DNA from: a bacterium
Lineage (GTDB): Bacteria; Elusimicrobiota; Elusimicrobia; UBA1565; UBA9628
Direction: 5' to 3'
Assembly: GCA_021822495.1 (NCBI GenBank)
Contig: JAKAQO010000005.1
Coordinates: 106,548-144,851, forward strand
DNA: 38,304 bases
Made by a program: the position numbers and the translations under genes. Below, in pieces: positions 20,922 through 35,040 of this stretch; positions within the stretch are counted from its first letter, which is position 1; every line of letters begins with the position of its first letter. The notes below the pieces were generated by a model. The model had not been told where the DNA came from, ran no database searches, and worked only from the letters and a program-made list of their open reading frames with translations.

Positions 20922-20963
20922 TAAACGCTGGGGTAGCTCAGTGGTAGAGCATCTCCATGGTAA
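20922..20963 (+). repeat. attL core: 5' half of tRNA-Thr
   Basis: 42 bases identical to 34964-35005: TAAAC followed by the first 37 bases of tRNA-Thr, ending in the anticodon loop (ATGGTAA). After it the sequence diverges (TGGGAAAAACCC), so no functional tRNA is made here. The following 186 bases to the AbiEii stop hold no gene, only G/C-rich runs alternating with T-tracts and the 25-bp repeat. Confidence 0.88.
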
Positions 20964-21077
20964 TGGGAAAAACCCGTTTTCGCGGTTTTTTGCCCGGCCT
21001 TGTTTGATTCGGTTTCTCGACGAGAAACGCCCAAAATCCATTTTTTCGGCTTTGCGGGTTTTTTCCCGTTTTTGACC

Positions 21078-21102
21078 CAAGATGGACACTATATGGACAC
21101 CA
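21078..21102 (+). repeat. Left copy of 25-bp end repeat (candidate integrase arm sites)
   Basis: 25 bases identical to 34887-34911. Inside, the 8-mer ATGGACAC occurs twice with an 11-bp period, one helical turn. It lies 114 bases inside the left attachment core. Paired short direct repeats near the ends are typical of arm-type binding sites of tyrosine integrases; the role is inferred. Confidence 0.6.
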
Positions 21103-21149
21103 GTTTTTGGGGCTGTTAAATCGAAATATCTAACCCAACTCGACTTTCT

Positions 21150-22151
21150 TTAGGACTGATTGAACTCTTTTTCGAACTGAACTATGATCCGGAGTATTTC
21201 ATCGAAGACCGGCGGAGTGCGAAAGAACATTTCCTTGCGCATGGCGGCGTAATCGCTCCGCCATTCAGCTTCCTGCTGGGGTAGCGGTGCGATACGCAAG
21301 CGCCCTTTTTTAAGAGTGTCGTAATCCATCCAGCCGTAGCGGAAGAAGTTGCGGCGGTGAGTGGCGACGCGCTCAAACAACGCCATATCCTTGACCGCCT
21401 CGGCGGCGATGCCCTTCGTGATGAGGCACCATAGATCGTAATAGTGGCGCGAAAGGCGTGCCTTGCGCCGCTTGCCCTCCGGACGATAAGTCTCCTCATG
21501 GAGCAACATCGCCTTTTCCCAGAACGTTCGACGCGGCGCGACGCTTCGCACCGAAAACGAGCCGTTCATAATTAGATTGTCAAAGACGCCGGCGAGCATG
21601 GGCTCTATATTGGGAGACTCAGCGGGTTCGGTTTCCGAGCGCGCGCCCAATTCGATCTTGACCGCTTGCCGCACATAGCTCTCCGCCTTCGGGAACTCGG
21701 TCGGATAGTGAAAGAGGAGTGTCTGCATGTCCATGTCCTCATCAGCTCCGGCGGCCTCCAGAACCCATTTCGCATTCCTCGGCAATCGCGCGGTGAAACG
21801 CTTTTGGAGCTCGGGCAACAGCTCCTTGACCACGCGCGCGCTACAAGCTTCCTTGAGCTTCTCGAGTTGTTTATTGCTCAGGCGTTCGCCAGAAAACCCG
21901 AGGGATTCACGGTCAATCACGATGTCAATGTCCTCGGAAAACCGCTCGATTAACTTCCAGCCCTTGGAAAGAGAGGTTCCGCCCTTGAACGTTAGATGCG
22001 CCCCGAAACCCGGTAGAGCGAAGAGTTCTCGCAGCGTCCAGCAAACCCAGAAATCCTTCTCAATGATCCTGGCCGGAATATTGAGACGAGCCTCGGCTTC
22101 CTTGAAGGCCAGCGTTTTTTCCTCGCCCGGTTTGCGGATGAAAGAGTCCAT
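21150..22151 (-). CDS. abiEii: AbiEii/AbiGii-family nucleotidyltransferase toxin
   Basis: 333 residues. The nucleotidyltransferase signature is visible as LTFKGGTSLSKGW followed by FSEDIDIVIDRE (GGTSLSK plus D-x-D). AbiEii proteins are toxins of type IV toxin-antitoxin systems that stop growth and can abort phage infection; related toxins modify tRNA 3' ends. The gene starts 1 base after the stop of abiEi, as in known AbiE operons. Its base composition is richer in GC than the housekeeping genes to the left, consistent with its place in a mobile element. It may serve phage defence or element stability. Confidence 0.9.
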   Translation of the reverse strand: MDSFIRKPGEEKTLAFKEAEARLNIPARIIEKDFWVCWTLRELFALPGFGAHLTFKGGTSLSKGWKLIERFSEDIDIVIDRESLGFSGERLSNKQLEKLKEACSARVVKELLPELQKRFTARLPRNAKWVLEAAGADEDMDMQTLLFHYPTEFPKAESYVRQAVKIELGARSETEPAESPNIEPMLAGVFDNLIMNGSFSVRSVAPRRTFWEKAMLLHEETYRPEGKRRKARLSRHYYDLWCLITKGIAAEAVKDMALFERVATHRRNFFRYGWMDYDTLKKGRLRIAPLPQQEAEWRSDYAAMRKEMFFRTPPVFDEILRIIVQFEKEFNQS

Positions 22152-22152
22152 C

Positions 22153-22755
22153 TTATCGGTCCCCGCTCGCGATCCAGCGCATCCACTTGGCGACCCAGGC
22201 CGGCGCGAGACGCGCGTCGGCGAGAAGCCGCTTCTTGTCCTTGGCGTTCAAACGCCGCCTGAGCGGGGCGAGCCTGTCCGCGGAAACGTGCTTCTGGCCC
22301 AGCCAACGCAAGGCGTTGATAACGAGCCCGCTAACCCGCCCAGCCGCCGCCATGCGCTTGGGCGTGGTGTGACGAAGGATGATGCGCCGATCACCCACGC
22401 GCAGGATGCGCGGCGTGCCGTCGGTTAGATAGACGAGCTTCATCGGGACATGATCGGAAAGGCCAAGAAGATTCGCCGCGTAGGCGCCGGTCGGCTGTAA
22501 ATTGATGTGGTCACGGGCGGCCAAAGCTCGGGCGACGGCCTCCGCGTCCGGCGAAAGAGCTCCCAACAAGGAATGTTGTCGCGGCACATCGTAAAGGCCG
22601 CGGCTGACGCGGCGGATAGCCCCGGCGCGCACCAGCCGCGCCAGCGCCATGCCGACAGCGTGGGGCGTTCCCAGATCGGCGAAGTCCGCCGGTGAGAAGA
22701 CAGCACCCGGCTGTAGATGATTGACGCGAAGCAGGATTTGTTTCCTTACAGTCAT
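22153..22755 (-). CDS. abiEi: AbiEi-family antitoxin / autorepressor
   Basis: 200 residues. An N-terminal winged helix (VFSPADFADLGTPHAVGMAL, then RLVRAGAIRRVSRGLYDVPR) precedes a C-terminal domain with LQPTGAYAANLLGLSDHVPM and RRIILRHTTPK. AbiEi antitoxins counter the nucleotidyltransferase toxin and repress their own operon by binding inverted repeats in the promoter. Such a promoter, embedded in a perfect 20-bp inverted repeat, lies directly upstream. Start chosen at 22755, the first ATG after the promoter. Confidence 0.9.
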   Translation of the reverse strand: MTVRKQILLRVNHLQPGAVFSPADFADLGTPHAVGMALARLVRAGAIRRVSRGLYDVPRQHSLLGALSPDAEAVARALAARDHINLQPTGAYAANLLGLSDHVPMKLVYLTDGTPRILRVGDRRIILRHTTPKRMAAAGRVSGLVINALRWLGQKHVSADRLAPLRRRLNAKDKKRLLADARLAPAWVAKWMRWIASGDR

Positions 22756-22761
22756 AGTGAA

Positions 22762-22812
22762 AGTATACTATGAAAGTGTTAAAAAAACAAGATGTTTTTT
22801 TAACACTTTCAT
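22762..22812 (-). promoter_or_regulatory. abiE promoter inside a perfect 20-bp inverted repeat
   Basis: Arms at 22770-22789 and 22793-22812 are perfectly complementary with a 3-base centre. On the minus strand -35 TTGTTT (22785-22790) and -10 TATACT (22762-22767) are 17 bp apart, so the left arm and centre cover the -35 box and spacer. TGAAAGT is repeated at 22758-22764 and 22771-22777. This is a likely AbiEi operator. Confidence 0.7.
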
Positions 22813-22845
22813 CAAGATTAATGGAGATGGGGCGCTCAAAGCCCC

Positions 22846-22877
22846 TTGACTCTATACCTTGGTATAGGGTTTATACT
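22846..22877 (+). promoter_or_regulatory. mer promoter/operator (MerR type)
   Basis: -35 TTGACT (22846-22851) and -10 TATACT (22872-22877) are separated by 20 bp, the over-long spacer typical of MerR-activated promoters. The spacer holds the dyad CTATACC-TT-GGTATAG at 22852-22867. It precedes merR, so regulator and resistance genes share one promoter. Confidence 0.85.
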
Positions 22878-22896
22878 ATGGATAGGAGGATAATGT

Positions 22897-23343
22897 ATGA
22901 GCGAAACATTAACTATCGGCCGGGCGGCTAGACTCGCCAAGGTGAACACCCAGACCCTGCATTACTACGAACGGCGCGGACTATTGCGTCCGGAAAGCCG
23001 TCTTGAATCGGGATACCGGTTGTATGGCGATGAATCTATCAGAAAGATTCGCTTTATCAAAAATGCGCAAGGCCTCGGTTTTTCGCTTGATGAGATCGCG
23101 CGGCTTTTGCGCCTAAGGGTTGGGCGCACGGTTCAATGCCTGAAGGTCCGGCGTCAGGCCCAGATGAAACTTAATCTCGTGCGCCAGAAAATCTTACAAC
23201 TCAATGTCCTCGAAAAGACCCTTCGGCGGTTGATTAAAACCTGTGAGTCCAAGGGAACGACGGATTCCTGCCCCATCCTGGAAGCCGTGGCCGACGCCAC
23301 TCCACTGGGAAAGACCAGAAATCGCTATATAAAGCAGGGATAA
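22897..23343 (+). CDS. merR: Mercury-responsive MerR regulator
   Basis: 148 residues. The helix-turn-helix reads LTIGRAARLAKVNTQTLHYY followed by ERRGLL and the wing GYRLYGDESI. Three cysteines, C81, C116 and C125, have the spacing (35 and 9) of the Hg(II)-binding C82-C117-C126 of classical MerR, which supports mercury rather than copper or zinc as inducer. It bends the over-long mer promoter to activate it when Hg(II) binds. AGGAGG at 22884-22889 fixes the ATG at 22897. First gene of the mer operon, 4 bases before merTP. Confidence 0.93.
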   Translation: MSETLTIGRAARLAKVNTQTLHYYERRGLLRPESRLESGYRLYGDESIRKIRFIKNAQGLGFSLDEIARLLRLRVGRTVQCLKVRRQAQMKLNLVRQKILQLNVLEKTLRRLIKTCESKGTTDSCPILEAVADATPLGKTRNRYIKQG

Positions 23344-23347
23344 CACG

Positions 23348-23941
23348 ATGGAAAACAAGAAATGGAGTCTTGTGGGAGCGTTTTTAGCGGCTATAGCCGC
23401 TTCGGCCTGCTGTCTGGGCCCGCTCATTTTGGCGGCTTTAGGACTAGGAAGCCTGGGCGCCTTCTCAGGTTTTGAAAAATACCGCCCAATCTTTGTGACC
23501 GCAACGCTGATTCTTCTGGCGGTTGCGTTTTACCGCGTTTACTGGCAACACGAGGAGAAATGCGAAAATGGGAGTTGCCGCGTTTCTTCCTCCGGCCCTA
23601 AGGTCCTTTTGTGGATAACGGCGGTTGCCGCCATCGGCATTCTGTCCTCTCCCCGCTGGTTGCCGGCGCAAATGAAAGGCAAGGCGAACCCCGTTTCCGT
23701 TAAGGACAAAAACCTCGAAACCGTGTTCTTGAAGGTGACGGGAATGGACTGCGCCATGTGCATCCCGCCGATTGAAAGGAATCTCAGGAAGGTTCCGGGC
23801 ATTTCCTTCGCCCATGTTGATTTCAAAAAACAAACAGCCGTAGTGCGGGGGATAAAGCTGGACGTAAAAAAGCTTATCGCGGGCGTCAAGGCCGCGGGCT
23901 ACAAAGCGGCTCAAATCAAAAATCCAGGAGAAAAACCATGA
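23348..23941 (+). CDS. merTP: MerT-MerP fusion: mercuric ion importer
   Basis: 197 residues joining two proteins that are usually separate. Residues 1-105 are MerT-like: a vicinal pair C21-C22 in the first helix (SACCLGPLILAALG), a second pair C72/C77 in the loop, and a third helix. Residues 125-197 form an HMA domain with GMDC135-AMC138, equivalent to periplasmic MerP. The chain would pass Hg(II) from the HMA domain to the membrane cysteines and on to MerA. The HMA domain follows an odd number of helices, consistent with a periplasmic location. It overlaps merA by 4 bases. Confidence 0.9.
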   Translation: MENKKWSLVGAFLAAIAASACCLGPLILAALGLGSLGAFSGFEKYRPIFVTATLILLAVAFYRVYWQHEEKCENGSCRVSSSGPKVLLWITAVAAIGILSSPRWLPAQMKGKANPVSVKDKNLETVFLKVTGMDCAMCIPPIERNLRKVPGISFAHVDFKKQTAVVRGIKLDVKKLIAGVKAAGYKAAQIKNPGEKP

Positions 23942-25389
23942 ATCAAAACCACGAACAGGAGACGGAAAATTTCTGGGATGGCCGGACGGACTTTGACCTT
24001 ATTGTCGTGGGCGGAGGTTCCGCGGCCTTCGCGGCGGCAATTAAGGGTTCAGAGTTGGGCGCGCGGGTCGCCGTGGTGGAGGAAAACGTTATTGGCGGAA
24101 CCTGTCTTAATCGCGGCTGCGTGCCGACCAAGCACTTGATCCGCGCTGCCGAGATTTACCACTTGGCCGAGGCCAATCCCTTCCCCGGATTTTCTCTTAA
24201 GCGATCTTCACTTGATTTTGCCAAGCTGATTGAGAAAAAAGACGGCCTCATCGGCTGGGCCAGAAACGCCAAGTATTGGGACATCCTCAAACACCACAAA
24301 AATATCAGCTTCATTCATCGCCGGGCGCGCTTTCTCGCGGCCAACCGTATTCAAATCGGCGATCAAGAACTGCGCGCTCCCAAAATCATCGTGGCAACAG
24401 GCTCTTCGGCCTTTATTCCGCCCATTGAGGGTTTGGACCAGGTTTCCTACCTGACCAGCACGGAAGCCTTAGAACTTAAAAAATTGCCCAAATCCATGAT
24501 TGTTTTGGGGGCCAACGCGGTGGGGCTCGAACTGGCTCAAATGTTTTCCCGCTTTGGGGTCAAGGTGACCATTCACGAGATCATGGGCCGATTGGCTCCT
24601 CTGGAAGAACCCGAGCTGTCGGAGGCCTTGGAGACCTATCTTAAAGAAGAAGGCATCGAGGTCTGCACTTGCTCCAAGGTCATCAAGACCCGCGAGAAGC
24701 GCAACAAAATCATCATCACCACCGAGATGCCTCAAGGCGTGACCAAGGAGTTCCAGTCCGAATCGCTTTTAGTCGCGACCGGCCGAAGACCCCATACGCG
24801 CGGCTTGGGGATTGAAGAGATCGGGGTGGCTCTGGACCCAAGGGGATACGTCAAGACCGACGAGACGATGAAGACCTCGATCGAGGGAATTTTCGCGGCC
24901 GGGGACTGCGTCGGCCCCTGGCAATTTGTCTACACCGCCGCTCACCAAGGGACGGTGGCGGCTCAAAACGCCTTGGACGGATGCTGCGCTCGAAAGGTCG
25001 ATCAAGGTCTTGTGCCCTACGCCATTTTTACGGATCCCGAATTGGCCTCCGTAGGTCTCAAAGAAGAGGAGGCCAAGAAACGGGGGCTGAAGGTCCGCAC
25101 AAGCGTGCTGGACCTTCATTGGGTTCCCCGCGCGGAAGTCATGCTTAATGAGCGCGGCCGGGTCAAACTCATAGCCGAGGAAGGAACGCTTAAACTTTTG
25201 GGCGTCCATATTCTCGCGCCACAGGCTGGCGAACTTATCCATGAGGCGATGCTGGCGCTTAAATACGGGGCGACGGCGAAAGATTTGGCGGAGACCCTCC
25301 ATGTCTATCCGACGCTGTCGGAGGCTCTCAAAATTTGCGCGCAGGGATTCTTTAAGGATGCAACCAAACTTTCCTGCTGCGCGGAATAA
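23938..25389 (+). CDS. merA: Mercuric reductase
   Basis: 483 residues. FAD motif VVGGGSAAFAAA, active-site disulfide C56-LNRG-C61 in GGTCLNRGCVPTKHL, NAD(P)-binding GANAVGLELAQMF, AAGDCVG, and the C-terminal vicinal pair C480-C481 (LSCCAE) that hands Hg(II) to the active site. It reduces Hg(II) to volatile Hg(0) with NADPH. It lacks the N-terminal HMA (NmerA) domain, leaving the merTP-encoded HMA as the only one in the operon. No merB (organomercurial lyase) is present. Confidence 0.95.
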   Translation: MNQNHEQETENFWDGRTDFDLIVVGGGSAAFAAAIKGSELGARVAVVEENVIGGTCLNRGCVPTKHLIRAAEIYHLAEANPFPGFSLKRSSLDFAKLIEKKDGLIGWARNAKYWDILKHHKNISFIHRRARFLAANRIQIGDQELRAPKIIVATGSSAFIPPIEGLDQVSYLTSTEALELKKLPKSMIVLGANAVGLELAQMFSRFGVKVTIHEIMGRLAPLEEPELSEALETYLKEEGIEVCTCSKVIKTREKRNKIIITTEMPQGVTKEFQSESLLVATGRRPHTRGLGIEEIGVALDPRGYVKTDETMKTSIEGIFAAGDCVGPWQFVYTAAHQGTVAAQNALDGCCARKVDQGLVPYAIFTDPELASVGLKEEEAKKRGLKVRTSVLDLHWVPRAEVMLNERGRVKLIAEEGTLKLLGVHILAPQAGELIHEAMLALKYGATAKDLAETLHVYPTLSEALKICAQGFFKDATKLSCCAE

Positions 25390-25409
25390 CAAAGAGGAGG
25401 AATAAAACC

Positions 25410-25487
25410 ATGAACGAGGAAAATGCCAAAACCTGCGGTTGCGGCTGTTCGTGTTGCTCCAGCGAGAAATGCTGTTGTTCAAAGTAA
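25410..25487 (+). CDS. Cys-rich micropeptide of the mer operon (25 aa)
   Basis: A 25-codon frame with a strong GAGGAGG ribosome site (25394-25400) nine bases upstream. Eight of 25 residues are Cys, at positions 9, 11, 13, 15, 16, 21, 22 and 23, in C-x-C, CC and CCC clusters, with few hydrophobic residues. The composition is metallothionein-like, and its place between merA and the next small gene suggests a Hg(II) or thiol buffer. I do not recognise a named family. The Shine-Dalgarno and cysteine pattern argue that it is translated. Confidence 0.7.
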   Translation: MNEENAKTCGCGCSCCSSEKCCCSK

Positions 25488-25511
25488 AAAAGGAAAACAT
25501 GGAGGCGGAAC

Positions 25512-25703
25512 ATGAAGAACATTCGCGTTTATGACGGTTCTTTGTGGTGTTGTGGCGGTAAATGTCCGGTGATCGACTACGCTCCTGAAAAAGGCCAGGT
25601 CGTCATCCATGACCCGGCCAAGCCCGAGAAGGGGTGGATGGTAATGAGCGTCGAGGAATATAACGCCTTGATCGCGCACGCCAAGCCGATCGGTCGTAAA
25701 TAA
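25512..25703 (+). CDS. Small CCGGKC protein of the mer operon (63 aa)
   Basis: 63 residues starting MKNIRVYDGSLWCCGGKCPV, with C13, C14 and C18 grouped, followed by an acidic, soluble stretch ending in a predicted helix (SVEEYNALIAHA). GGAGG at 25501-25505 lies 6 bases before the ATG. The C-C-x3-C cluster suggests metal or thiol chemistry. No family recognised. It is the last gene before the hairpin at 25719-25751 and so probably the end of the main mer transcript. Confidence 0.75.
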   Translation: MKNIRVYDGSLWCCGGKCPVIDYAPEKGQVVIHDPAKPEKGWMVMSVEEYNALIAHAKPIGRK

Positions 25704-25718
25704 GCTGGCAAAGCCTTG

Positions 25719-25751
25719 GCGGGCTTCCCTCGCGCCTTGAGGGAAGCCCGC
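25719..25751 (+). terminator. Hairpin after the mer operon
   Basis: A perfect 13-bp GC-rich stem (arm GCGGGCTTCCCTC) with a 7-base loop, 16 bases past the last stop. No T-tract follows, so it may slow decay or terminate weakly rather than act as a classical intrinsic terminator. Confidence 0.55.
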
Positions 25752-25770
25752 GGGTTAGCGAAAGTTTGAA

Positions 25771-26250
25771 ATGGGAGCGGCTACTTTGCGAGGAATCGTT
25801 CGACTAATGATCGTCGGTGTCGCATTAGCGGCGCTGATCTTGATTGCCCGCCGCGAATGTTTCGCCGGTTGGGAGACCCGATTCGATATCCAAGATTTCT
25901 CGCTGAGTGCTATCACCATGAGAGACTTCAACCATGGTCATTGGCTCTCCGGAATTTCGAAAACGATCTGGGAACTTGATCAATGCTACTCCGAAGGCTG
26001 TCGCCCCAGACTCACGGTAACGCCGTTTGAGGACTGGGACTTTGAGAGCGCAAAGGCGAGTTTCGGCGCGGCGATTGGCGTTCCGCTTTTGCCGTTCCTT
26101 GACTACTCTTTGCTGGGACAAGACTTCAAGAGAAATATCAAGAAGCTCGAACAATACGGGGGCCTTCAGTTCGCGGTTTGTCCCTCTCAATATGCCTATG
26201 ATGAAATCCAAAAGATGGCTTACGGTCTCATCCTTGGAGTGAAAATATAG
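25771..26250 (+). CDS. Membrane-anchored or secreted protein of unknown function
   Basis: 159 residues. One N-terminal hydrophobic segment (about residues 8-26, IVRLMIVGVALAALILIARR) is followed by a soluble, probably extracytoplasmic domain with C30, a C72/C77 pair (LDQCYSEGCRPR) and C136. The C-terminus (YGLILGVKI) is mildly amphipathic. No family recognised. It lies 20 bases past the mer hairpin in the same direction, ahead of two membrane micropeptides, so it may be part of an extended mercury transcript. The ATG has only a weak ribosome site. Confidence 0.55.
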   Translation: MGAATLRGIVRLMIVGVALAALILIARRECFAGWETRFDIQDFSLSAITMRDFNHGHWLSGISKTIWELDQCYSEGCRPRLTVTPFEDWDFESAKASFGAAIGVPLLPFLDYSLLGQDFKRNIKKLEQYGGLQFAVCPSQYAYDEIQKMAYGLILGVKI

Positions 26251-26261
26251 GGGGGCGTAAA

Positions 26262-26348
26262 ATGGGACAAGAAAAAATTTGGACAATCTTAGCCGCGATT
26301 GCGCTTATTGCCCTGTGCTGTTTCGGGCATCTGTTCACGCGGCGATAA
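26262..26348 (+). CDS. Membrane micropeptide with vicinal cysteines (28 aa)
   Basis: 28 codons: a short polar start (MGQEKIW), one hydrophobic helix with C19-C20 inside it (LIALCCFGH) and a basic end (TRR). A GGGGGG run lies 7 bases upstream and could serve as ribosome site. A Cys pair inside a single helix recalls the first helix of MerT and suggests Hg(II) or thiol transfer across the membrane. It is far too short for MerC, MerE or MerF, and no family is recognised. Confidence 0.5.
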   Translation: MGQEKIWTILAAIALIALCCFGHLFTRR

Positions 26349-26373
26349 AAAAATAAAGAAAAAGGAGAAAATC

Positions 26374-26490: not shown

Positions 26491-26495
26491 AACGC

Positions 26496-26545: not shown

Positions 26546-26551
26546 ACAATT

Positions 26552-26944: not shown

Positions 26945-27460
26945 TCAGCGAAGCAACCACCGCAGCCTCGGCGTGAACGTTTCCGGTTCAAGTTCGCCGG
27001 GAAACTTGGCCTTAACGCGGCCATCGCGGCCAATGAGAAAGCTCATCGGCAATCCTAGAACGCCGCCGAATTTCTCCGCAATCTCCGCCGTTCCCAGGAC
27101 AACGGGGTAATTCATGTGGAACTTGCGGTCAAAGCTGCTTACGTCTTGCGGCCTATCATCAAGAGATATCCCAACGACGCGCAGCCCGCGCCGGCGATAT
27201 TTCGTCGAAAGCCGGTTTAAGAAAGGAATCTCGTCTCGGCAGGCAGCGCACCATGTGGCCCAGAAATTGACCAGGATCACTTTTCCGCGCCATTGCGCCA
27301 GGTTCAGCCGCCGGCCATCGAGTTCCGCCATGTCGATGTTGGGCGCTGGCCGCAGAGAATGGGCTGGCGGCGCGACATCGACGTTCCGCCGCCTCAAGGA
27401 CAAGAACCCCCATGCCGCGACAACGGCCAGCGCCAGGATCATCGCGTATTTTCTCGACAT
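26945..27460 (-). CDS. TlpA/ResA-like membrane-anchored thioredoxin
   Basis: 171 residues. An N-terminal hydrophobic anchor (residues 7-21) is followed by a thioredoxin fold with the active site W70-C71-A-A-C74 (VNFWATWCAACRDEIPFL), VVGISLDD and the cis-Pro region LGLPMSFLIGRDG. Such proteins face the periplasm and reduce disulfides, often for cytochrome maturation or repair. Here it follows a flavoprotein-rhodanese gene by 3 bases, so it may pass electrons to or from a sulfur carrier. The family is sure; the partner is inferred. Confidence 0.9.
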   Translation of the reverse strand: MSRKYAMILALAVVAAWGFLSLRRRNVDVAPPAHSLRPAPNIDMAELDGRRLNLAQWRGKVILVNFWATWCAACRDEIPFLNRLSTKYRRRGLRVVGISLDDRPQDVSSFDRKFHMNYPVVLGTAEIAEKFGGVLGLPMSFLIGRDGRVKAKFPGELEPETFTPRLRWLLR

Positions 27461-27463: not shown

Positions 27464-29149
27464 TCAGCGGCTGACGGGGTAGCCTTTCTCGACCCAATCC
27501 GCGCCGAAGTTTTTCGGCAGGATGAGGGCTTTGACGTTCTTAAAACCCATGGCGCGCAATTCCAGCCAAGCGGGCCGGATGTTGGGGCAATGCTCCCATG
27601 GACAGCAACCGCAGTAGATCACTATCGCGGCGCCGCGTGGAAGATTTTTCACGCGCTGCCGCAGGGCAAGCCGCCCTTCTTCCTTGGAAACCGCTCCGAC
27701 ATATTCAGAACCGGGGATATGCGCTTGATCATAAAGAACGCGGAAGCCTACTTGCAGGATCAAAGGCCGGCGGCCGCGCGGCGCTTTGAGCTGTTTAATC
27801 AGAACCTCCGGTTTTATGGTTTGAATGATTGTGGAGGAAGTCTCCGCCGCGGCTGTCTCGGACGAATTCCGCGCGTCTGGCGCGGCGGCGGAACATCTGG
27901 CGGAACCCGAAAGCGAGAAGAGAACAGCTAGACTCGCGCCGAGGACGACGCCCTTGGTCCTGGCTCCCCATTTAAGAATCATATCCAGCAACTCACGCTT
28001 GAGGCCGAAGGAAGTCAGCCACCATTTTTCAAAAAGGACCTTGCCCGCGTGCCACGATTTCGACGGCTCGTATAAACGCATCCGGGGGGTTTCGCCGAAG
28101 AAATTTCCGCTCCCGAAGGCCGCGGTACCGCCTCCAAGCTCTATGGCGCACCACCCCTGGCCGTCAAACCGCTTGGTTGGCGCGCGTCCGTCGAAAAAAT
28201 CCGCGATGTTTTCGGCCGCGATTTCCGCCTGCGCGTGGGCGAATACGCCGGCCTTCGGCAGGGCCTTGCCCTGCGCAAGCGGGGTGAAGGAGACGTCGCC
28301 AACGGCGAAGATGCCGTCATGTTTGGTTGCCAATGTCTCCCGGTCGACCGGAATCCAGCCCGCCTCGTTGGCGAGCCCGGATTCCCTGACCACGCGCGGA
28401 GATTGATGCGGAGGGACGCCGATCAAAAGGTCGAAAGAAGCGGTCTTGCCGTTGTCGAAAGAGATCGTTTTCGCTTGAACGTCAATCCCAGAAACTTTAT
28501 GCCCGGGATTGAAAGCGATGCCCTTCGCCTCAAGCATTCCCCTCAATGCGGCTCCAACCTCGGGTCCGGCTGTCGGCATGGGATAGGGCTCCGGCGTGAA
28601 CACGGCGAGCTCGGCCGAGACGCTCCGTTTTTTCAGGAAGTCGCCAACGAGAAACGCCGCCTCATACGGCGCGGCGGGACATTTAAACGGCGAGGATGAG
28701 ATCAAAACGGCCACGCGCCCGCCGGAAAACTCTCGCAACCGCTCGGCGATCTTGAGAGATCCTTCCAGGGCGTAGAGATTGAGCGCGGCTTCCTTAAACC
28801 CCGGAATTTTCTCGGGAGCGAGTTCCGCGCCCAGGCTGATGAGGAGGGCGTCGAATTTCAGGGGGCCGGAAGATGTTTCCACGATTCTTTCAGCCGGACG
28901 GATGGCGGTCGCTTCCGCCCGGACAATTTCCACGCCGGGCCTGAGCATCGCCGCCAACGGTTTCTGAACCTGTTCGGGCGTCCTCTCGCCGGTCAGAATC
29001 CACAAAAACGAAGGTGAAAAGGCGAAGGCGGCTTCCTTTTCGACCAGGACGACGCGGTGTCGGCCGTTGAAACGCCGCGCCAGGGCGTTTGCCGCCGTCT
29101 GACCGCCGATGCCGCCGCCCAGTATTAGGACCGTCTTTTTATCGGCCAT
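27464..29149 (-). CDS. SQR-like flavoprotein fused to a rhodanese domain
   Basis: 561 residues. Residues 1 to about 385 form an FAD/NAD-binding oxidoreductase (LILGGGIGGQTAANAL, GIFAVGDVSFTPL) with the segment SSSPFKCPAAPYEAAFLVGD, whose Cys matches a conserved redox Cys of sulfide:quinone reductases and flavocytochrome c sulfide dehydrogenases. Around residue 400 a hydrophobic, signal-like stretch (GVVLGASLAVLFSLSGSARC) follows. Residues about 440-561 are rhodanese-like, with an unusual cysteine cluster C513-G-C515-C516-PWEH-C521. The order suggests a cytoplasmic flavoprotein joined through a membrane helix to a periplasmic sulfurtransferase, or a fusion of two former genes. DsrE lies upstream and TlpA downstream. 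Confidence 0.8.
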   Translation of the reverse strand: MADKKTVLILGGGIGGQTAANALARRFNGRHRVVLVEKEAAFAFSPSFLWILTGERTPEQVQKPLAAMLRPGVEIVRAEATAIRPAERIVETSSGPLKFDALLISLGAELAPEKIPGFKEAALNLYALEGSLKIAERLREFSGGRVAVLISSSPFKCPAAPYEAAFLVGDFLKKRSVSAELAVFTPEPYPMPTAGPEVGAALRGMLEAKGIAFNPGHKVSGIDVQAKTISFDNGKTASFDLLIGVPPHQSPRVVRESGLANEAGWIPVDRETLATKHDGIFAVGDVSFTPLAQGKALPKAGVFAHAQAEIAAENIADFFDGRAPTKRFDGQGWCAIELGGGTAAFGSGNFFGETPRMRLYEPSKSWHAGKVLFEKWWLTSFGLKRELLDMILKWGARTKGVVLGASLAVLFSLSGSARCSAAAPDARNSSETAAAETSSTIIQTIKPEVLIKQLKAPRGRRPLILQVGFRVLYDQAHIPGSEYVGAVSKEEGRLALRQRVKNLPRGAAIVIYCGCCPWEHCPNIRPAWLELRAMGFKNVKALILPKNFGADWVEKGYPVSR

Positions 29150-29158: not shown

Positions 29159-29509
29159 TCAAAAAACCAGGACTTTGTCCGCTTCCATCGTCCAGATCGT
29201 CAACTCATCGAGCGTGCTTCTATGAGCGCCGTCAAAAAGGTCCGGCTCGTCCAGACCCCGGGCGTCCATGCAGGTTCCGCAGACGCCGATCTTGCCGCCG
29301 CGCTTGGCGATTCCCGAGCCCATCACCTCGATGTTGTAGTAGCCCTGCGGCACCTTTTGGCCCTTCTTGGCGCAGGCCGCGGCGTCCCCGATGAAAAACA
29401 CCTTGACCTCCACGCCGTCTTTTTTGGCCATGGAGCCCGCCAGCCGGAGTCCGTTATAAGACCGCTCGCTCCCGTAGGGCCCGTCGTTGAGAATGAAAAG
29501 AACTTTCAT
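29159..29509 (-). CDS. DsrE-family sulfur-carrier protein
   Basis: 116 residues with the DsrE/F fold pattern: KVLFILNDGPYGSERSYNGL, EVKVFFIGDAAACAKKG and KIGVCGTCMDARGL. C77 and C80 in VCGTC lie where sulfur-carrying cysteines are found in this family; C46 is a third. DsrE-like proteins relay persulfide sulfur in the cytoplasm. It precedes the flavoprotein-rhodanese gene by 9 bases and is preceded by two SHOCT genes. A role in persulfide handling is well supported by context. Confidence 0.88.
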   Translation of the reverse strand: MKVLFILNDGPYGSERSYNGLRLAGSMAKKDGVEVKVFFIGDAAACAKKGQKVPQGYYNIEVMGSGIAKRGGKIGVCGTCMDARGLDEPDLFDGAHRSTLDELTIWTMEADKVLVF

Positions 29510-29845: not shown

Positions 29846-29904
29846 ATTTCCTCCTCCAACGTAATTGCTCACGCAACGAACCAGCCCCTCGCATGAGGAG
29901 CCTC

Positions 29905-30156
29905 TCACGCGAGGATGTCTCGCTTCATGCGTTCGAACTCATCTTTGTTTATCTCGCCTTTTGCGTAGCGCCGCTTGAGGATATCCAGCGGACTGTCTGT
30001 ATCCCTGTTCGCGGCCTCATCATCGCGTCCATCCCATCTCCCGCAAGGGGGACGGAATCCGCGCCTCCCAGACATCAGATAAACCATCAACAACATCACG
30101 CTGAGCCCAATCAGCGGAAATATCCACATTCCCGCTCCCGGTCCATATAAACACAT
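29905..30156 (-). CDS. SHOCT-domain membrane protein (83 aa)
   Basis: 83 residues. One N-terminal helix (MWIFPLIGLSVMLLMVYLM) is followed by a polar linker and a C-terminal SHOCT motif (PLDILKRRYAKGEINKDEFE). A strong AGGAGGAGGG ribosome site precedes the ATG. Helix plus SHOCT is a common small-protein architecture in bacteria, function unknown. It is the second gene of the leftward thiol operon, 12 bases after the ArsR gene, and may pair through its SHOCT helices with the next protein. Confidence 0.85.
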   Translation of the reverse strand: MCLYGPGAGMWIFPLIGLSVMLLMVYLMSGRRGFRPPCGRWDGRDDEAANRDTDSPLDILKRRYAKGEINKDEFERMKRDILA

Positions 30157-30168
30157 AATTCCCTCCTC

Positions 30169-30549
30169 CTATCGCCGAATCATTCTTGTTTGGCGCAATC
30201 GTTTCGCCAGCGCGCCCCTATCCTCAAGCTGGTCGAGAAGCACCCGGCGCAGCAGATCGTAGGCCTTGAGCATCCCCGGATAGGCCAGCCGGTAATAAAT
30301 TCTCCGCCCCTCGCGCCTGGACGCGAGGATTCCCTTCTCCCGCATGACGGCGAGCTGCTGGGAGACATTCGCCTTCGGGATGCCCATGTCACGGGCGAGA
30401 TCTCCTGCGGCCTTCTCGCCGCCGCGCAAAAGGTGGATGACCTCCAGGCGCTTGGCATTGGCCAGCACCTTGCACACGTGAGCGTGAAGCTCAAACAACT
30501 CTTTATTTTCCACGGCTCTCGCTGGCGGCAGGCTTTTATCCCTCGACAT
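30169..30549 (-). CDS. ArsR-family regulator
   Basis: 126 residues from the ATG at 30549; a TTG start at 30567 is possible but lies within the predicted operator. The winged helix is clear: HVCKVLANAKRLEVIHLLRG, the recognition helix IPKANVSQQLAVMREKGIL and the wing RREGRRIYYRL. Only one Cys (C26) is present, so the two-Cys persulfide switch of SqrR/BigR proteins is not evident, nor a full metal site. It is first in the operon with SHOCT, DsrE, flavoprotein-rhodanese and TlpA genes and probably represses it; an imperfect dyad overlaps its promoter. The inducer is unknown. Confidence 0.88.
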   Translation of the reverse strand: MSRDKSLPPARAVENKELFELHAHVCKVLANAKRLEVIHLLRGGEKAAGDLARDMGIPKANVSQQLAVMREKGILASRREGRRIYYRLAYPGMLKAYDLLRRVLLDQLEDRGALAKRLRQTRMIRR

Positions 30550-30559
30550 AGTTTCTCTA

Positions 30560-30594
30560 TTTCGCAACTATATGCTAAATTATTTTTTAGGCAA
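30560..30594 (-). promoter_or_regulatory. arsR promoter with imperfect operator dyad
   Basis: On the minus strand TTGCCT (30589-30594) and TATAGT (30567-30572) are 16 bp apart, upstream of the ArsR gene. The dyad TTTCGCA (30560-30566) / TGCTAAA (30573-30579) is centred on the -10 box, matching at 6 of 7 positions. Autorepression is inferred. Confidence 0.4.
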
Positions 30595-30637
30595 CATCAA
30601 GCAATCGCGCTCCCCCGGCGGACAGCGATTTTATAGA

Positions 30638-31243
30638 ATGATCTTCGACCCCAAAATTATGGCCGCCGCATCCATCGAAGATCAGGTCAAAGGAATCAAA
30701 GAGCGCCGCGCGGGCGCGCTCGAAGAGCTTGTGAAAACCTATACGCGACCGCTCATGGCCGCAGCTTTCGCCATGGGGTTTTCGGAGACCGACGCCGAGG
30801 AACTCGCCCAGGACAGCTTCGTCTCTTTCCTTGAGGCCGTGGACCGTTTCGAGGGACGCTCACAACTCAAGACCTATCTTTTCGGCATTCTCTACAACAA
30901 GGCCTCGACCCTGCGTCAAAAGCGTTGGCGAGAGGAAGGAGCGGAGGACATCGAAAAAGTTTTCGATCAGAGGTTTAACTCAAACGGGCTATGGTCCGCA
31001 CCGCCCCAGGGTCCGGAAGATGCCGCCCTCACGCGGGAAATCAAGAGGGTGATCGAAAAATGCGCCGAGAATTTGCCGGCCCAACAGCGCACGGCTTTTT
31101 TCCTCAAGGAAGCAGAGGGAGAAAGTTCGGAATCCGTGTGTAACATTTTGGGAATTTCCCCTACTCATTTACGGGTGCTATTATTCCGGGCGCGAGTGAA
31201 ACTTCGCGAGTGCCTGGAACGCAATTGGAACCAATCCCAATGA
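30638..31243 (+). CDS. ECF-type RNA polymerase sigma factor
   Basis: 201 residues from the ATG at 30638; a longer frame begins at 30572 inside the divergent promoter. Region 2 is visible (ALEELVKTYTRPLMAAAFAM, AEELAQDSFVSFLEAVDRFE, LKTYLFGILYNKA) and region 4 (LPAQQRTAFFLKEAEGESSE, then the helix-turn-helix VCNILGISPTHLRVLLFRAR). It overlaps by 4 bases a zinc-finger anti-sigma gene, the usual pairing. The pair may tune the island's operons under metal or thiol stress, but no target promoter was identified. Confidence 0.88.
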   Translation: MIFDPKIMAAASIEDQVKGIKERRAGALEELVKTYTRPLMAAAFAMGFSETDAEELAQDSFVSFLEAVDRFEGRSQLKTYLFGILYNKASTLRQKRWREEGAEDIEKVFDQRFNSNGLWSAPPQGPEDAALTREIKRVIEKCAENLPAQQRTAFFLKEAEGESSESVCNILGISPTHLRVLLFRARVKLRECLERNWNQSQ

Positions 31244-31488
31244 TGCCCTCATTCATTCCGTCCTGCCAAGAAGTGTCGTCAAGGCTGGCCTTTGGGGAGT
31301 TTAAGGAGGCTTCCTGGAAGACAAAGACGTTTGTTCGCATTCATCTGTTCATGTGCCGCGATTGCCACCGCTTTGCCCGGCAAATGCGGATTATTTCCGA
31401 GGGATTGCGGACCAGTTGGAAAGAGAATTTAACCAAGGAACGCCTCAACGCCGTTGAGCGCAGAATTCTGTCCCGCCTTAAAAAATAA
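31240..31488 (+). CDS. Zinc-finger (zf-HC2) anti-sigma factor, short
   Basis: 82 residues from the ATG at 31240, overlapping the sigma gene stop. The H-x3-C-x2-C motif (HLFMCRDCHRFARQM) marks the zinc anti-sigma domain. Unlike many members there is no transmembrane segment, so it should be a soluble, possibly redox- or metal-responsive anti-sigma factor like RsrA or ChrR. An upstream start at 31210 would lie inside the sigma gene. Confidence 0.8.
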   Translation: MMPSFIPSCQEVSSRLAFGEFKEASWKTKTFVRIHLFMCRDCHRFARQMRIISEGLRTSWKENLTKERLNAVERRILSRLKK

Positions 31489-31952
31489 CGCGCGCACCTT
31501 CCCTCTTTGCTAGAAGCCATCGTAGTTCCACCTGCCAAGCATTAAACCCCCAGTTCGCTTCTGTATTGCGCGACGGAGCGCTGGGAGAGATTAACGTCGA
31601 GAAGGTTGGGAAGGGAGCATAGCGCGGAAGCAAAAGCGCGAGTGGCGTTGGAGGCCGGGGGCATCGTCTTAAACGGGGATAGTGTCGGTTCCTGCATCGC
31701 GGTCCCAATCGGCAACCTCTCCGCCACGACGGTCAGGCAGTAGAGCACATTTCTAAATAGAAATAATTATTTCTATTTAGAAATCACGAAAACCGCGACC
31801 TTCCCCCGATTCTCCTCTTAAAACCGCATCCCGCCTCCGCCCCATCAACCTTGGCATAAAAATCCATACCAAGAGGGCGACGGGCCGATTTCCGGACCCG
31901 ACACCGGTCCGCAAAAACCGGAAGCTAAACACAAAACAAGGAGACAGAAACC
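31489..31952. other. Gene-poor stretch with palindrome
   Basis: 464 bases between the anti-sigma gene and the RHH-like gene. Short frames exist on both strands (longest about 70 codons at 31542-31748 minus), but none has a ribosome site or a recognisable product. It contains the 36-bp palindrome at 31749-31784 and a pair of CTTGG/CCAAG arms near 31850-31875. The second half, upstream of 31953, is GC-rich and probably carries the promoter of the maintenance genes. Confidence 0.5.
31749..31784. promoter_or_regulatory. 36-bp perfect palindrome made of two dyads
   Basis: A perfect 36-bp AT-rich palindrome. Each half contains its own 14-bp dyad, TTTCTA-AA-TAGAAA (31750-31763) and TTTCTA-TT-TAGAAA (31770-31783), with centres 20 bp apart (about two helical turns). 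This looks like a double operator for a dimeric regulator, perhaps the RHH-like protein or the excisionase-type HTH protein downstream. Confidence 0.55.
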
Positions 31953-32234
31953 ATGGAGACGCAGTCAGTTCAGCCGGAGGAAGAAGGGGGGATGGTCGCG
32001 GAAATTGCGGAACTTTCGGAGGAGTCGCGGGCCGGACTGGCCCGAAACCCGAAGGCTTCCCGCTGCATCAAGATGCAAAGTTTCATCCTGCTTAAGGACA
32101 TCGTGAGCCTGGACGAGATTCGGCTTAAGTTCATGCGGCAGGGACAAGACATCAGCCGCGGACGGCTTTTGTCCGAGGCCATCCGCCTGCTCGTCAAGGA
32201 AGTTTCAACCGGGAAACTCGAGATCAAGGGATGA
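31953..32234 (+). CDS. Small ribbon-helix-helix-like protein
   Basis: 93 residues. An acidic N-terminus (QPEEEGGMVAEIAELSEESR) is followed by ASRCIKMQSFILLKDIVSLDE and QDISRGRLLSEAIRLLVKEV. The strand-then-two-helices pattern with S-R-G-R-L-L-S-E-A-I-R is what ribbon-helix-helix DNA-binding proteins show, and such proteins regulate plasmid partition, mobilisation or copy number. AAGGAG precedes the ATG. It stands first in the maintenance module, next to the 36-bp palindrome, which may be its operator. The assignment rests on pattern, not on a named family. Confidence 0.5.
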   Translation: METQSVQPEEEGGMVAEIAELSEESRAGLARNPKASRCIKMQSFILLKDIVSLDEIRLKFMRQGQDISRGRLLSEAIRLLVKEVSTGKLEIKG

Positions 32235-32282
32235 GGACTCATGCTTAAACCACAGCGGGACGCTCTCAAATTCCTTCCGGCA

Positions 32283-32306
32283 ATCCTTCCGGCATGCCGG
32301 AAGGAT
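32283..32306. repeat. 24-bp perfect palindrome
   Basis: Perfect palindrome with half-site ATCCTTCCGGCA, 49 bases after the RHH-like stop. A partial extra copy of the half-site (TTCCTTCCGGCA) lies just upstream at 32271-32282, giving a direct repeat next to the palindrome. It may be a terminator stem or a protein-binding site. Confidence 0.6.
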
Positions 32307-32388
32307 GGGAAAAAGAGGGAATTAATGAAAAATCCATTATTTTCCTGCCCTTTTTGCCCCGCCTCTTGGCGCGAAAAGCCGCTTAAGC

Positions 32389-32454
32389 CTCCTGACCACA
32401 CCCCCACAACCATATTAAAAAATGATGGTTTTAGTGGTGCTGTGGTCAGGAGGA
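32389..32454 (+). repeat. 66-base long hairpin
   Basis: Outer arms CCTCCTGACCACA (32389-32401) and TGTGGTCAGGAGG (32442-32454) pair perfectly over 13 bp. Inner arms AACCAT/ATGGTT and CCAC/GTGG extend the stem imperfectly toward an A-rich loop (32414-32424). As single-stranded DNA or RNA this is a very stable element. Confidence 0.6.
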
Positions 32455-32586
32455 CGGCGGGGGTTGGGGCAGGAAATTAAGGAACAGAAGGCGGGGAGTT
32501 GGGATGAAAATGGTTAGCGCTGAGCTTAAGAGTGGAAGGAAAGAGTGGCAGGTTTGGGGTGGAAGGTATGGGAAACAAGGGTTAAG

Positions 32587-33006
32587 ATGAACTGGAAAAT
32601 GTCATCAGGATGGGTCAGTGAATGGTTGAAAATGGGAGAGTCGGGGCGGGAGTTTGAGGCCGAAGGGTTGGGGGGTGGGGGATTTTTGAGTCTGTCACAG
32701 ATAGAGGGACTGGCGCTTGGCAAGGCATCGGAAAGGAAAAGATGGGAGCTGTTTTTCAATGGAAGGTTCAAGGATGAGTATCGGGGAGCGGCCTATAAAG
32801 TTCTGGAAAGGCTGGTTAAAAGAGGCTTGGTGATGGGGCAAAGCTATGTCAATTTGACGCGGGTTTACTCATTAACTAGGAAGGGACATGCGGCTTTGGT
32901 TGAGTCTGGACTGGCGGGTCTTGAGGACTACAGGGACACGGTTTCCGACAACATGATCCGGCATGAGCTGTTGGTTTCGGGCATAGGTCTTCCCCTTGGG
33001 AGATGA
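32587..33006 (+). pseudogene. Truncated winged-helix protein resembling replication-relaxation/mobilisation proteins
   Basis: 139 codons from the ATG at 32587 (a longer frame starts at 32545). The second half reads as a winged helix: AAYKVLERLVKRGLVMGQSY and RVYSLTRKGHAAL, then DNMIRHELLVSGIGLPLG before an early stop. The R-V-Y-x-L-T-x-x-G wing followed by N-M-x-x-H-x-L-L-V recalls replication-relaxation proteins of plasmids and integrative elements, which continue well past this point. I therefore think the C-terminal part is lost. It sits after the hairpins and 64 bases before the excisionase gene. Confidence 0.45.
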
Positions 33007-33070
33007 GATCGCCTTGACCGGACTTTAGATTTTCTTGCCCAGAAGAGTCGAGTATTAAAAGGAGAATCAA

Positions 33071-33331
33071 ATGAACTCACAAAACGAGACAACCCCCGCC
33101 ACGCGTGGCCTTGCCGTAATCGAAAAGGAACCAGAGGGAAACGTGGAACGACGCTTCCTTAAAATCGAGGAGCTCTCGGAATACATGGGAACCCCCGTCG
33201 CCACCCTCTACACCTGGACCCATCAGAAAAAAATTCCGCATCTTAAGATGGGACGCTCGGTTCGCTTCGATCTTCGGGAAATAGAGGAGTGGATTAAAAA
33301 AAGACGGGTCGCGGTCTCCCCGTTTGCCTAA
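33071..33331 (+). CDS. xis: Excisionase-type helix-turn-helix protein
   Basis: 86 residues. After a polar N-terminus the protein has RFLKIEELSEYMGTPVATLY followed by T-W-T and KIPHLKMGRSVRFDLREIEE, with W-I-K-K-R, the DNA-binding domain (MerR-like, HTH_17) of excisionases and AlpA-type regulators. AAAAGGAG lies 6 bases before the ATG. It precedes the integrase by 69 bases, the usual place for a recombination directionality factor. Confidence 0.85.
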   Translation: MNSQNETTPATRGLAVIEKEPEGNVERRFLKIEELSEYMGTPVATLYTWTHQKKIPHLKMGRSVRFDLREIEEWIKKRRVAVSPFA

Positions 33332-33400
33332 ATCATGGATCGGGGCGACAAAAAATGAATCGACAGGGAACATTTTCTGGTTTTGAAGGTAAGACATAGT

Positions 33401-34411
33401 ATGGGACTCCTTAAAAAAGGCGAGAACTGGTATATCGACTATTACCAAGGAGGCCGCCGCAAGCGCGAGAAAATCGGCCCCTCCAAAAGCTTGGCCAGGG
33501 AGGTCTTACTTAAACGCCAAAACGAGGTCTCTGAAGGAAAGTATTTCCCGGAACGAAGCAAAAATATCCTCTTCCGCGTTTTCGCGGATAAATACTGGAA
33601 TTTAGAGGGGCGCCACCTGAAGGCTAAAGGAATCAAGGGGGTTCTCAATACGTTCAAAATCCAGTTCGGGAATAAAACCCTTTCCGAGATAACATCCGCT
33701 GATGTCCAGAATTTTTACAACATGACGGCGGACAGAACCAGCGCGGCAACCGCAAACCGGCAAATCAATTTCCTGTCGCCCTTGTTTAACCGGGCCAAGG
33801 AGTGGGGGGATTTCCACGGAGACAATCCAGTCGCCAAGGCGCGGCGAAGAAGGGAAGAAAATAAAAGACTGCGCTTCTTAAGCGAGGAGGAAATCAAAAA
33901 CCTTCTTAATGCCGCCGATGCGCGGCTTCATCCTCTTTTAGCGTGCGCCATCATGACGGGGATGCGAAAAGGAGAAATTCTGGGACTGCGCTGGGAAAAC
34001 GTGGATTTGGAACGTCACATGATATTTATTCTTAAATCAAAATCAGGAAAGGCGAGGGAAATTCCCATTGGCAAGCGGCTGCTGGAGATTTTATCGTCTT
34101 TGGTGCCTAAGGCGAATGGCGCGGTCTTTGAGATTCCGGAAATAACGATGAGAAGAAAATTCGCCCGCGCTCTGGAAGATGCGAATATCATGGGATTTCG
34201 TTTCCATGACCTGCGGCATACCTTCGCCAGCCATTTCGTTATGAGAACGGGAGATTTGCCGGCCTTGCAGAAACTTCTGGGTCATGCCTCGCCTCAAATG
34301 ACCCAGCGTTACGCTCATTTGGCCCAGGAACATCTATTCGCAAAAATGGAAAAGTTCGACGCGTCCATGCCCGTTGAACCCCTGAGTTTGCCGCAAAAGG
34401 GAATTGCATAA
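33401..34411 (+). CDS. int: Tyrosine recombinase (integrase)
   Basis: 336 residues from the ATG at 33401 (a TTG 18 bases earlier is also in frame). An N-terminal arm-binding region (GLLKKGENWYIDYYQGGRRK), a core-binding SAM-like domain (ALEARLIER than residue 170) and a complete catalytic domain follow: Arg in TGMRKGEILGL, H-x-x-R in FHDLRHTFASH, His in KLLGHASPQM and nucleophile Tyr in QRYAHLAQEH. It should integrate the element at tRNA-Thr. Compared with the relic downstream, its C-terminus is shorter (ends SLPQKGIA) and lacks the segment that overlaps the 25-bp end repeat. Confidence 0.93.
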   Translation: MGLLKKGENWYIDYYQGGRRKREKIGPSKSLAREVLLKRQNEVSEGKYFPERSKNILFRVFADKYWNLEGRHLKAKGIKGVLNTFKIQFGNKTLSEITSADVQNFYNMTADRTSAATANRQINFLSPLFNRAKEWGDFHGDNPVAKARRRREENKRLRFLSEEEIKNLLNAADARLHPLLACAIMTGMRKGEILGLRWENVDLERHMIFILKSKSGKAREIPIGKRLLEILSSLVPKANGAVFEIPEITMRRKFARALEDANIMGFRFHDLRHTFASHFVMRTGDLPALQKLLGHASPQMTQRYAHLAQEHLFAKMEKFDASMPVEPLSLPQKGIA

Positions 34412-34413
34412 GG

Positions 34414-34596
34414 TCATCGCATCGTGACCATTTATCCGCGAACCAAAGAGAAGAAATTGCCAAGGCATTGGGGCTCAGTTCCGAATATGTGCGCAAAGAC
34501 ATTCTTCCAAGGCTGATGCGCTCCGGAAAGATCGCCTATACCCTTCCGGATAAGCCGAGAAGCAAACAGCGGCGCTATGTCACAAAAACTAAGTGA
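34414..34596 (+). pseudogene. Fragment of a winged-helix protein
   Basis: An open frame of 60 codons with no start of its own: HRDHLSANQREEIAKALGLS, then EYVRKDILPRLMRSGKIAYT and a basic tail ending in TGA. It reads as a helix-turn-helix with wing, as found at the C-termini of several DNA-binding or Fic/AAA proteins. It begins just after the integrase stop in another frame, so it is probably the remaining 3' end of a gene broken by recombination. Confidence 0.45.
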
Positions 34597-34682
34597 GCTA
34601 AACCATCCCTAGCGCTCTTTTTTAATCTTGCATTAAATTCCTCTCGCGCGACTTCTTTTTTTCCAGAGCTCTAAAAAATGTT

Positions 34683-34955
34683 AATATACAAGGGTTCAGG
34701 TTTCATGATTTTACCTTTGCCAGTCATTTTATTATGAGAATGAGAAATTTGCCAGCCTTGCGGAAACTTCTGGGTCATGCCTCGCCTCAAATGACCCAGC
34801 GCTATGCGCATTTGGCCCAGGAACATCTGTTCGCTAAAATGGAAAAGTTCGACGCGTCCATGTCCGTTGAATCATTGGATTTATCGCAAGATGGACACTA
34901 TATGGACACCAAGGTCCTTGGCGCCTTGCGCAAAAATGGCAATAAATGCTTATAA
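34683..34955 (+). pseudogene. Integrase relic (C-terminal fragment)
   Basis: 91 codons homologous to the end of the intact integrase (from its NIMGFRFHD region), with near-identical stretches such as KLLGHASPQMTQRYAHLAQE. The H-x-x-R motif is damaged: FHDLRHTFAS reads FHDFTFAS, so two residues including the catalytic Arg are gone. The relic runs on through DLSQDGHYMDTKVLGALRKN, a tail absent from the intact copy and encoded by the 25-bp end repeat. It shows that an earlier, related element or a duplication event occupied this site. Confidence 0.85.
34887..34911 (+). repeat. Right copy of 25-bp end repeat
   Basis: Identical to 21078-21102 and, like it, contains ATGGACAC twice at an 11-bp period. 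It lies inside the integrase relic, 52 bases before the right core, at the end of the element opposite to its partner. Confidence 0.6.
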
Positions 34956-34956
34956 T
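34926..34956 (+). promoter_or_regulatory. Element-borne promoter for tRNA-Thr
   Basis: TTGCGC (34926-34931) and a perfect TATAAT (34951-34956) are 19 bp apart, and the -10 box lies 12 bases before the tRNA. The sequence belongs to the element (it overlaps the integrase relic), so tRNA-Thr is now expressed from a promoter the element supplies. Confidence 0.6.
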
Positions 34957-34963
34957 TTCAATA

Positions 34964-35005
34964 TAAACGCTGGGGTAGCTCAGTGGTAGAGCATCTCCAT
35001 GGTAA
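34964..35005 (+). repeat. attR core: 5' half of tRNA-Thr
   Basis: 42 bases identical to 20922-20963. Here the copy joins the native 3' half, giving an intact tRNA. The crossover lies somewhere within these 42 bases. Confidence 0.88.
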
Positions 35006-35040
35006 GGAGAAGGTCGTGGGTTCAATCCCCATCCCCAGCT
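34969..35040 (+). tRNA. tRNA-Thr (anticodon GGU)
   Basis: 72 bases forming a complete cloverleaf: acceptor GCTGGGG/CCCCAGC, D stem GCTC/GAGC, anticodon stem TCTCC/GGAGA with loop ATGGTAA (anticodon GGT), T arm GTGGG-TTCAATC-CCCAT. No CCA is encoded. Its 5' half lies in the 42-bp repeat; its 3' half is native chromosome. Confidence 0.95.

Follow-up and report, generated by a model that had tools for sequence, protein, structure and literature searches.

Integrases that target tRNA genes usually keep the tRNA by carrying its 3' part. Islands of the opposite kind, with the 5' half, are known from Islander and from the archaeal pTN3, and they are rare. In Islander, 159 of 3919 islands have a 5' fragment (PMC4383910; Hudson, Lau & Williams 2015); in pTN3, a 41-bp core covers the 5' half, and the tRNA is separated from its promoter (PMC5495485). 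The 5'-half arrangement has been called seldom encountered in bacteria by a review (PMC8371274), and our literature search found no description of such islands in Elusimicrobiota.

The window analyzed here (the whole stretch of DNA, 38,304 nt, from a member of Elusimicrobiota) contains an island that, in all likelihood, was integrated by its own integrase through an exchange in the anticodon loop, with the rebuilding of tRNA-Thr at its right end. The features of the locus are as follows:

20807-20836, plus strand: predicted native promoter of the tRNA-Gly/tRNA-Thr unit, TTTTCA-18-TAGAAT with extended -10 (consensus scan)
20847-20917, plus strand: tRNA-Gly(TCC), intact, host (ARAGORN, Rfam)
20922-20963, plus strand: attL core, the displaced host 5' half of tRNA-Thr (5 nt and positions 1-37; repeat, empty-site mapping)
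21083-21101, plus strand: left arm-type repeat, TGGACACTATATGGACACC, one of only two exact copies in the 2.2-Mb genome
21150-22151, minus strand: AbiEii nucleotidyltransferase toxin (Pfam PF08843, 4e-43; PADLOC)
22153-22755, minus strand: AbiEi-type antitoxin (DUF6088/AbiEi_4; PADLOC AbiEi)
22897-23343, plus strand: MerR regulator (Pfam)
23348-23941, plus strand: MerT-HMA mercuric transporter (Pfam)
23938-25389, plus strand: mercuric reductase, MerA-like (Pyr_redox_2/Pyr_redox_dim; merA nucleotide matches)
26945-27460: thioredoxin-like protein (Pfam)
27464-29149, minus strand: sulfide:quinone-reductase-like/rhodanese fusion (Pfam)
29159-29509: DsrE (Pfam)
30169-30567, minus strand: ArsR regulator (Pfam)
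30572-31243, plus strand: ECF sigma factor (Pfam)
33071-33331, plus strand: HTH_17/AlpA-like protein, likely excisionase (PF12728, 2.7e-13)
33383-34411, plus strand: tyrosine integrase, catalytic motif residues present (PF00589, 2e-32; motifs; family alignment)
34415-34598, plus strand: 5'-truncated fragment of an unrelated ORF, with a putative deletion junction just after the integrase (reading frame)
34690-34954, plus strand: relic of a second integrase 3' end, 87% nucleotide identity over 184 bp to the intact gene (repeat, reading frame)
34892-34910, plus strand: right arm-type repeat, 77 bp before the tRNA (motif scan)
34926-34956, plus strand: element-supplied promoter-like sequence for tRNA-Thr, TTGCGC-19-TATAAT (direct reading, comparative test)
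34964-35005, plus strand: attR core, the element-carried 5' half of tRNA-Thr, to the last anticodon-loop base (repeat, empty-site mapping)
34969-35040, plus strand: tRNA-Thr(GGT), restored, complete (ARAGORN, Rfam)

The island ends are marked by a direct repeat (20922-20969/34964-35011) of 48 nt with 96% identity. Its first 42 nt are exact and comprise TAAAC and tRNA-Thr positions 1-37, stopping at the final base of the anticodon loop; the sequence-only reading, which described a 42-bp repeat of five upstream bases and the tRNA 5' half, was correct to the base. We regard a chance origin of this exact repeat, in copies 14 kb apart, as excluded. In a whole-genome search with the joined tRNA-Gly/tRNA-Thr as query, the tRNA-Thr(GGT) part was matched only at the two repeat sites. 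The island between the copies is ~14.0 kb long and has a G+C content of 55%, the left flank having 48% and the right flank 45%. The whole tRNA at one end, the fragment of the same tRNA at the other and the integrase inside are those of a tDNA-integrated island, and the displaced 5' half, replaced by a new one from the element, assigns it to the 5'-fragment subclass; a carried 3' half and a retained native promoter, which define the canonical 3'-half island, are both absent from it. The proposal that the rebuilt tRNA-Thr has an element-derived 5' half is borne out by the core, which spans -5 to +37, and by the 5' half displaced at attL. The window attL can be folded into a cloverleaf-like structure, but p = 0.135 versus shuffles, and eleven other attL mostly do not fold in this way; a pseudo-tRNA was therefore rejected. 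No terminator was found in a scan of the sequence just within the left end of the island.

The empty site is present in a genome of the same genus (G004, contig G004:C17), where window positions 20963 and 35006 correspond to the adjacent bases 2972 and 2971, and no island sequence was matched on this contig beyond the 45-bp core. The order tRNA-Gly, tRNA-Thr, tuf was found in about two dozen relatives. Thus, the empty site anticipated by the sequence-only reading does exist, in G004 and in these relatives; the counterexample that it named, an element-free relative with a duplicated tRNA-Thr half, was looked for, and G004 has neither the element nor an extra half. Two details of the expected site had to be corrected: TAAAC is not conserved as part of the spacer, which is different and 35 nt long in G004, and tuf does not directly follow tRNA-Thr in the window, being ~3.1 kb away with two extra genes between. 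The real tuf begins near 38183 and runs off the contig.

This neighborhood has peculiarities of its own. The 75-bp tuf 5' region (promoter, ribosome-binding site and first 8-16 codons) is seen at 35097-35171, 37102-37176 and 38138-38212, copies of it heading both extra genes that separate tRNA-Thr from the real tuf; G004 has a fusion of the first 16 codons of tuf to a signal-peptide protein, and close homologues of this protein were found in this genus only. This looks like a capture of tuf expression signals or like repeated insertion at the tuf start. The same interval contains two related ORF sets (35508-36347 and 37417-38102) with shared blocks 75-96% identical (187 nt at 36183/37938), evidently a local duplication, with DUF6714 between them; the set at 35508-36347 had no Pfam match.

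The integrase has the PF00589 domain and the R...HxxR...H...Y residues of a tyrosine recombinase, located in the motifs TGMRKGE (192), HDLRH (275), GH (300) and QRY (308-310), the columns of which are invariant or nearly so in the A1 alignment. Its gene is uninterrupted (33383-34411), which separates it from suicide integrases of the pTN3/SSV type. Among the 18 island ORFs scanned, no Pfam match to virion or conjugation genes was obtained, and the island is accordingly classed neither as a temperate phage nor as an ICE. The name mercuric reductase for the product of 23938-25389 is given because of its place in the mer operon. An origin of the cargo from a known plasmid was considered and rejected, only short merA/DsrE-like matches (66-79% among the matches listed) being found.

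Each island end carries an arm-type repeat, TGGACAC-N4-TGGACACC, which occurs exactly twice in the 2.2-Mb host genome, at these two ends, the left arm lying 120 bp inside attL. In 44 family genomes, the motif has 29 occurrences versus 2 for a reversed control, and most of them adjoin whole or half tRNAs. Paired arms have a common spacer (TATA, TTTT or CATA), and at right ends of the 5' mode the arm is positioned 75-77 bp before the tRNA. These repeats fit arm-type integrase sites, to which the integrase would presumably bind.

We propose that the tyrosine integrase of the island inserted its 14 kb by exchanging strands within the anticodon loop (7 bp) of tRNA-Thr(GGT), using the anticodon stem as the core site, with TGGACAC-N4-TGGACAC arms on both sides. 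In its attP, a copy of the tRNA 5' half would follow the integrase gene and the right arm. Integration would consequently leave the host copy of this half behind next to tRNA-Gly, at the left end, and form the right-end tRNA from the island 5' half and the host 3' half. The observations behind this proposal are the boundaries, the empty site, the intact integrase and the arms, as well as the recurrence of the arrangement in the integrase family and a circular relative with a 5'-half attP.

The latter is an IMG/VR contig (L150) of 14.9 kb, which has a 127-bp terminal direct repeat and is therefore probably circular. It encodes a major head protein, a terminase, a tape measure protein, a primase and an integrase of the wider family, and its order is integrase, arm, 5'-half tRNA (with a CAT anticodon loop), left-end sequence and second arm. 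Based on this gene content and attP, a relative of the island is a small phage with a tRNA 5' half in attP. An alignment scan of viral contigs gave matches, whereas a single-sequence scan of them gave none.

The integrase family was surveyed in 196 relatives, in which 28 integrase ORFs had a profile score over 450 and were treated as close. The 5' end of a same-strand tRNA adjoins or overlaps the integrase end in 21 of these 28, the tRNA 3' end faces the integrase in two, and a complete adjacent tRNA is absent for five. Among the latter, a 5'-half tRNA comes after two (L237 and L243), and another is that of the window, with its tRNA 558 bp away. The targets of the close family include tRNAs for Arg, Ala, Val, Lys, Thr, Gly and Phe, with many isoacceptors. 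Seven other elements could be seen with both ends, and each duplicates a tRNA 5' half; the far-end copies, scored only where enough contig was present, are Arg-CCT (G002, G004), Ala-CGC (G002, G001), Thr-TGT (G168), Val-CAC (G008) and Gln-CTG (an Omnitrophota genome). The 5'-half mode is a habit of this integrase family and the majority state of the clade. The description of the 5' part as less usual is thus right for islands overall, as the Islander count indicates, but not within this family, where it is the standard mode. In several 5'-mode loci (e.g., L240, L244, L232 and L089), the integrase ORF terminates at the conserved TAG of the tRNA D arm (positions 8-10 or 17-22) and hence overlaps the tRNA gene.

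Repeats of the 5' mode end at tRNA position 37-44, and in more distant relatives with the tRNA reversed relative to the integrase (e.g., in Nitrospira defluvii) the repeats, here of the 3' mode, extend from position 30-32 to the 3' end. A third geometry, found at tRNA-Ala(GGC) (L300, L301 and L277), has the same arms and polarity, with the complete tRNA away from the integrase and a displaced 3' half beside it. All the geometries overlap at about positions 31-37; therefore, the anticodon loop is the likely region of strand exchange, within which we infer the exact crossover bases, and the carried half appears to be the variable. A quick tree of 75 integrases requires 9 changes of the 5'/3' label versus a shuffled mean of 24.5, at least 4 changes being forced by well-supported branches, with three of the 5' labels ambiguous. 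The ambiguity concerns L078, L087 and L127, from outside Elusimicrobiota, and arises because a 3'-half copy lies on the other side of the tRNA; possibly, a single tRNA is used there from both sides by different elements. In addition, a single well-supported integrase clade (L239 on G001:C159, L056 and L149) includes both orientations of the target tRNA-Gly(GCC), a recent polarity flip.

The promoter-like sequence reported by the sequence-only reading is present as claimed, with TTGCGC at 34926-34931 and TATAAT at 34951-34956. Its -10 box is perfect, its -35 box weak and its spacer long; with 19 nt it was not listed by the consensus scan, which covered spacers of 16-18 bp. The integrase relic ends with a stop codon that overlaps the TATAAT box. 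As was also claimed, the native promoter is cut off from tRNA-Thr: the one predicted at 20807-20836, at the position of which G004 has a -10-like TAAAAT, would now serve tRNA-Gly and the stranded half. The comparison with relatives supports a replacement of the promoter. For six of the seven elements with both ends, the restored tRNA and the stranded half are preceded by different sequences, and most of those before the restored tRNA hold a -10 box; the exception is G168, in which the identity of the two ends extends through the native -10. The promoter score is higher at 5'-mode ends (n = 41) than at 3'-mode ends (n = 34; Mann-Whitney p = 2.5e-4, relatedness not being fully corrected), and TATAAT, TAAAAT or TAGAAT is mostly located at -13 to -20 in 5'-mode ends of the close subfamily. 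The rebuilt tRNA-Thr is, most likely, transcribed from the -10 box that lies within 20 bp of the right island end. At several 3'-mode integrase ends (e.g., L103, L117 and L133), a hairpin and a T-run facing the tRNA were noticed by eye, where the 5' mode has promoters.

The same island could also express its tRNA by read-through from the upstream integrase gene, as for the archaeal pTN3, with the TATAAT being incidental. Integrase and tRNA do point the same way in this family, 10 of the 43 5'-mode integrase ORFs end inside the tRNA, and pTN3-type tRNAs are expressed from the integrase promoter (PMC8371274). We nevertheless consider this unlikely, since 5'-mode ends, unlike 3'-mode ends, have an excess of -10 boxes at a fixed position, the dependence of an essential tRNA on a usually repressed integrase would be costly, and the window integrase ends well upstream of the tRNA, with the relic between. 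It is more doubtful still that the co-oriented restored tRNA of 5'-mode elements could signal integration and silence the integrase. Once the tRNA was completed, RNase P would cut the integrase read-through RNA at the tRNA 5' end and thereby remove the stop codon that lies inside the tRNA in those 10 of 43 (about a quarter of the family), whereas the circle, with half a tRNA only, would not be cut. Such a scheme is not directly applicable to the window integrase, given its distance of 558 bp. Transcription from the element-supplied -10 box is the reading that we retain.

The history of the right end was considered separately. The last ~260 bp of the island, including the promoter and the right arm, lie in the degenerate second integrase 3' end, and the simplest reading of this copy is that two tandem elements were fused by deletion. 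An element with the intact integrase would have lost its own attR, and the 5' half and the promoter would have been donated by a second one, a scenario for which we see about even chances. It agrees with the truncated ORF right after the integrase, with the relic that holds the only right arm, with a similar double integrase end in G010:C8 and with attP-like junctions (integrase, half tRNA, left end) inside the contigs L237 and L243, which point to tandem arrays; against it, the left and right arms have a common TATA spacer, like matched ends of one element elsewhere. Such a fusion is compatible with the integration proposed above and alters its history only. The island may still be able to excise; since its right end is composite and no arm of its own follows the intact integrase, excision may be impaired. 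The draft state of the assembly and the duplicated integrase sequence at the right end might suggest that the half-tRNA repeat is a local duplication or an assembly error and not a trace of integration. This is scarcely credible in view of the matched arms at two ends only and of the same architecture in seven or more independent elements that occupy other tRNAs, and it was rejected on the exact empty site in G004.

Overall, what was a rare exception, the use of the 5' half with promoter replacement, is the norm in a broad clade of bacterial integrases whose att architecture can be read. Since close and distant relatives share the anticodon-loop crossover but differ in taking the 5' half, the 3' half or a tRNA of opposite orientation, they offer a natural experiment on the general preference for the 3' half. 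Essential tRNAs are placed under predicted promoters supplied by the elements, and tool builders gain compact integrases with predictable sites.

Compared with the 5'-fragment islands of Islander, the island likewise has a tRNA restored at one end, a 5' fragment displaced at the other, a tyrosine integrase inside and a crossover of the anticodon-centered class; there, such islands are a minority, whereas here most members of a single integrase clade show the arrangement, with arms that are defined and an end that bears a promoter. The pTN3-type plasmids of Thermococcales share a core of about 41 bp over the tRNA 5' half and a tRNA rebuilt without its original promoter (PMC5495485, PMC8371274), but they are archaeal, and their integrase gene, which contains attP, is disrupted by integration; here, the gene stays intact and lambda-like arm repeats flank the site. 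Canonical 3'-half islands have in common with ours the anticodon-loop crossover, the tyrosine integrase and the regenerated tRNA with a displaced fragment, and differ in carrying the 3' half and keeping the native promoter; their mode occurs in the distant relatives and in the tRNA-Ala(GGC) elements with the same arms. In tRNA-dependent lysogeny (PMC10865867), integration into an essential tRNA is also compensated by sequence supplied by the element; however, the phage brings a whole second tRNA gene and the tRNA is not rebuilt, as it is here. Relative to the previous descriptions (PMC4383910, PMC5495485, PMC8371274), the present analysis adds a broad bacterial clade, a clade-wide use of the 5' half, fixed arms and the switching of halves.
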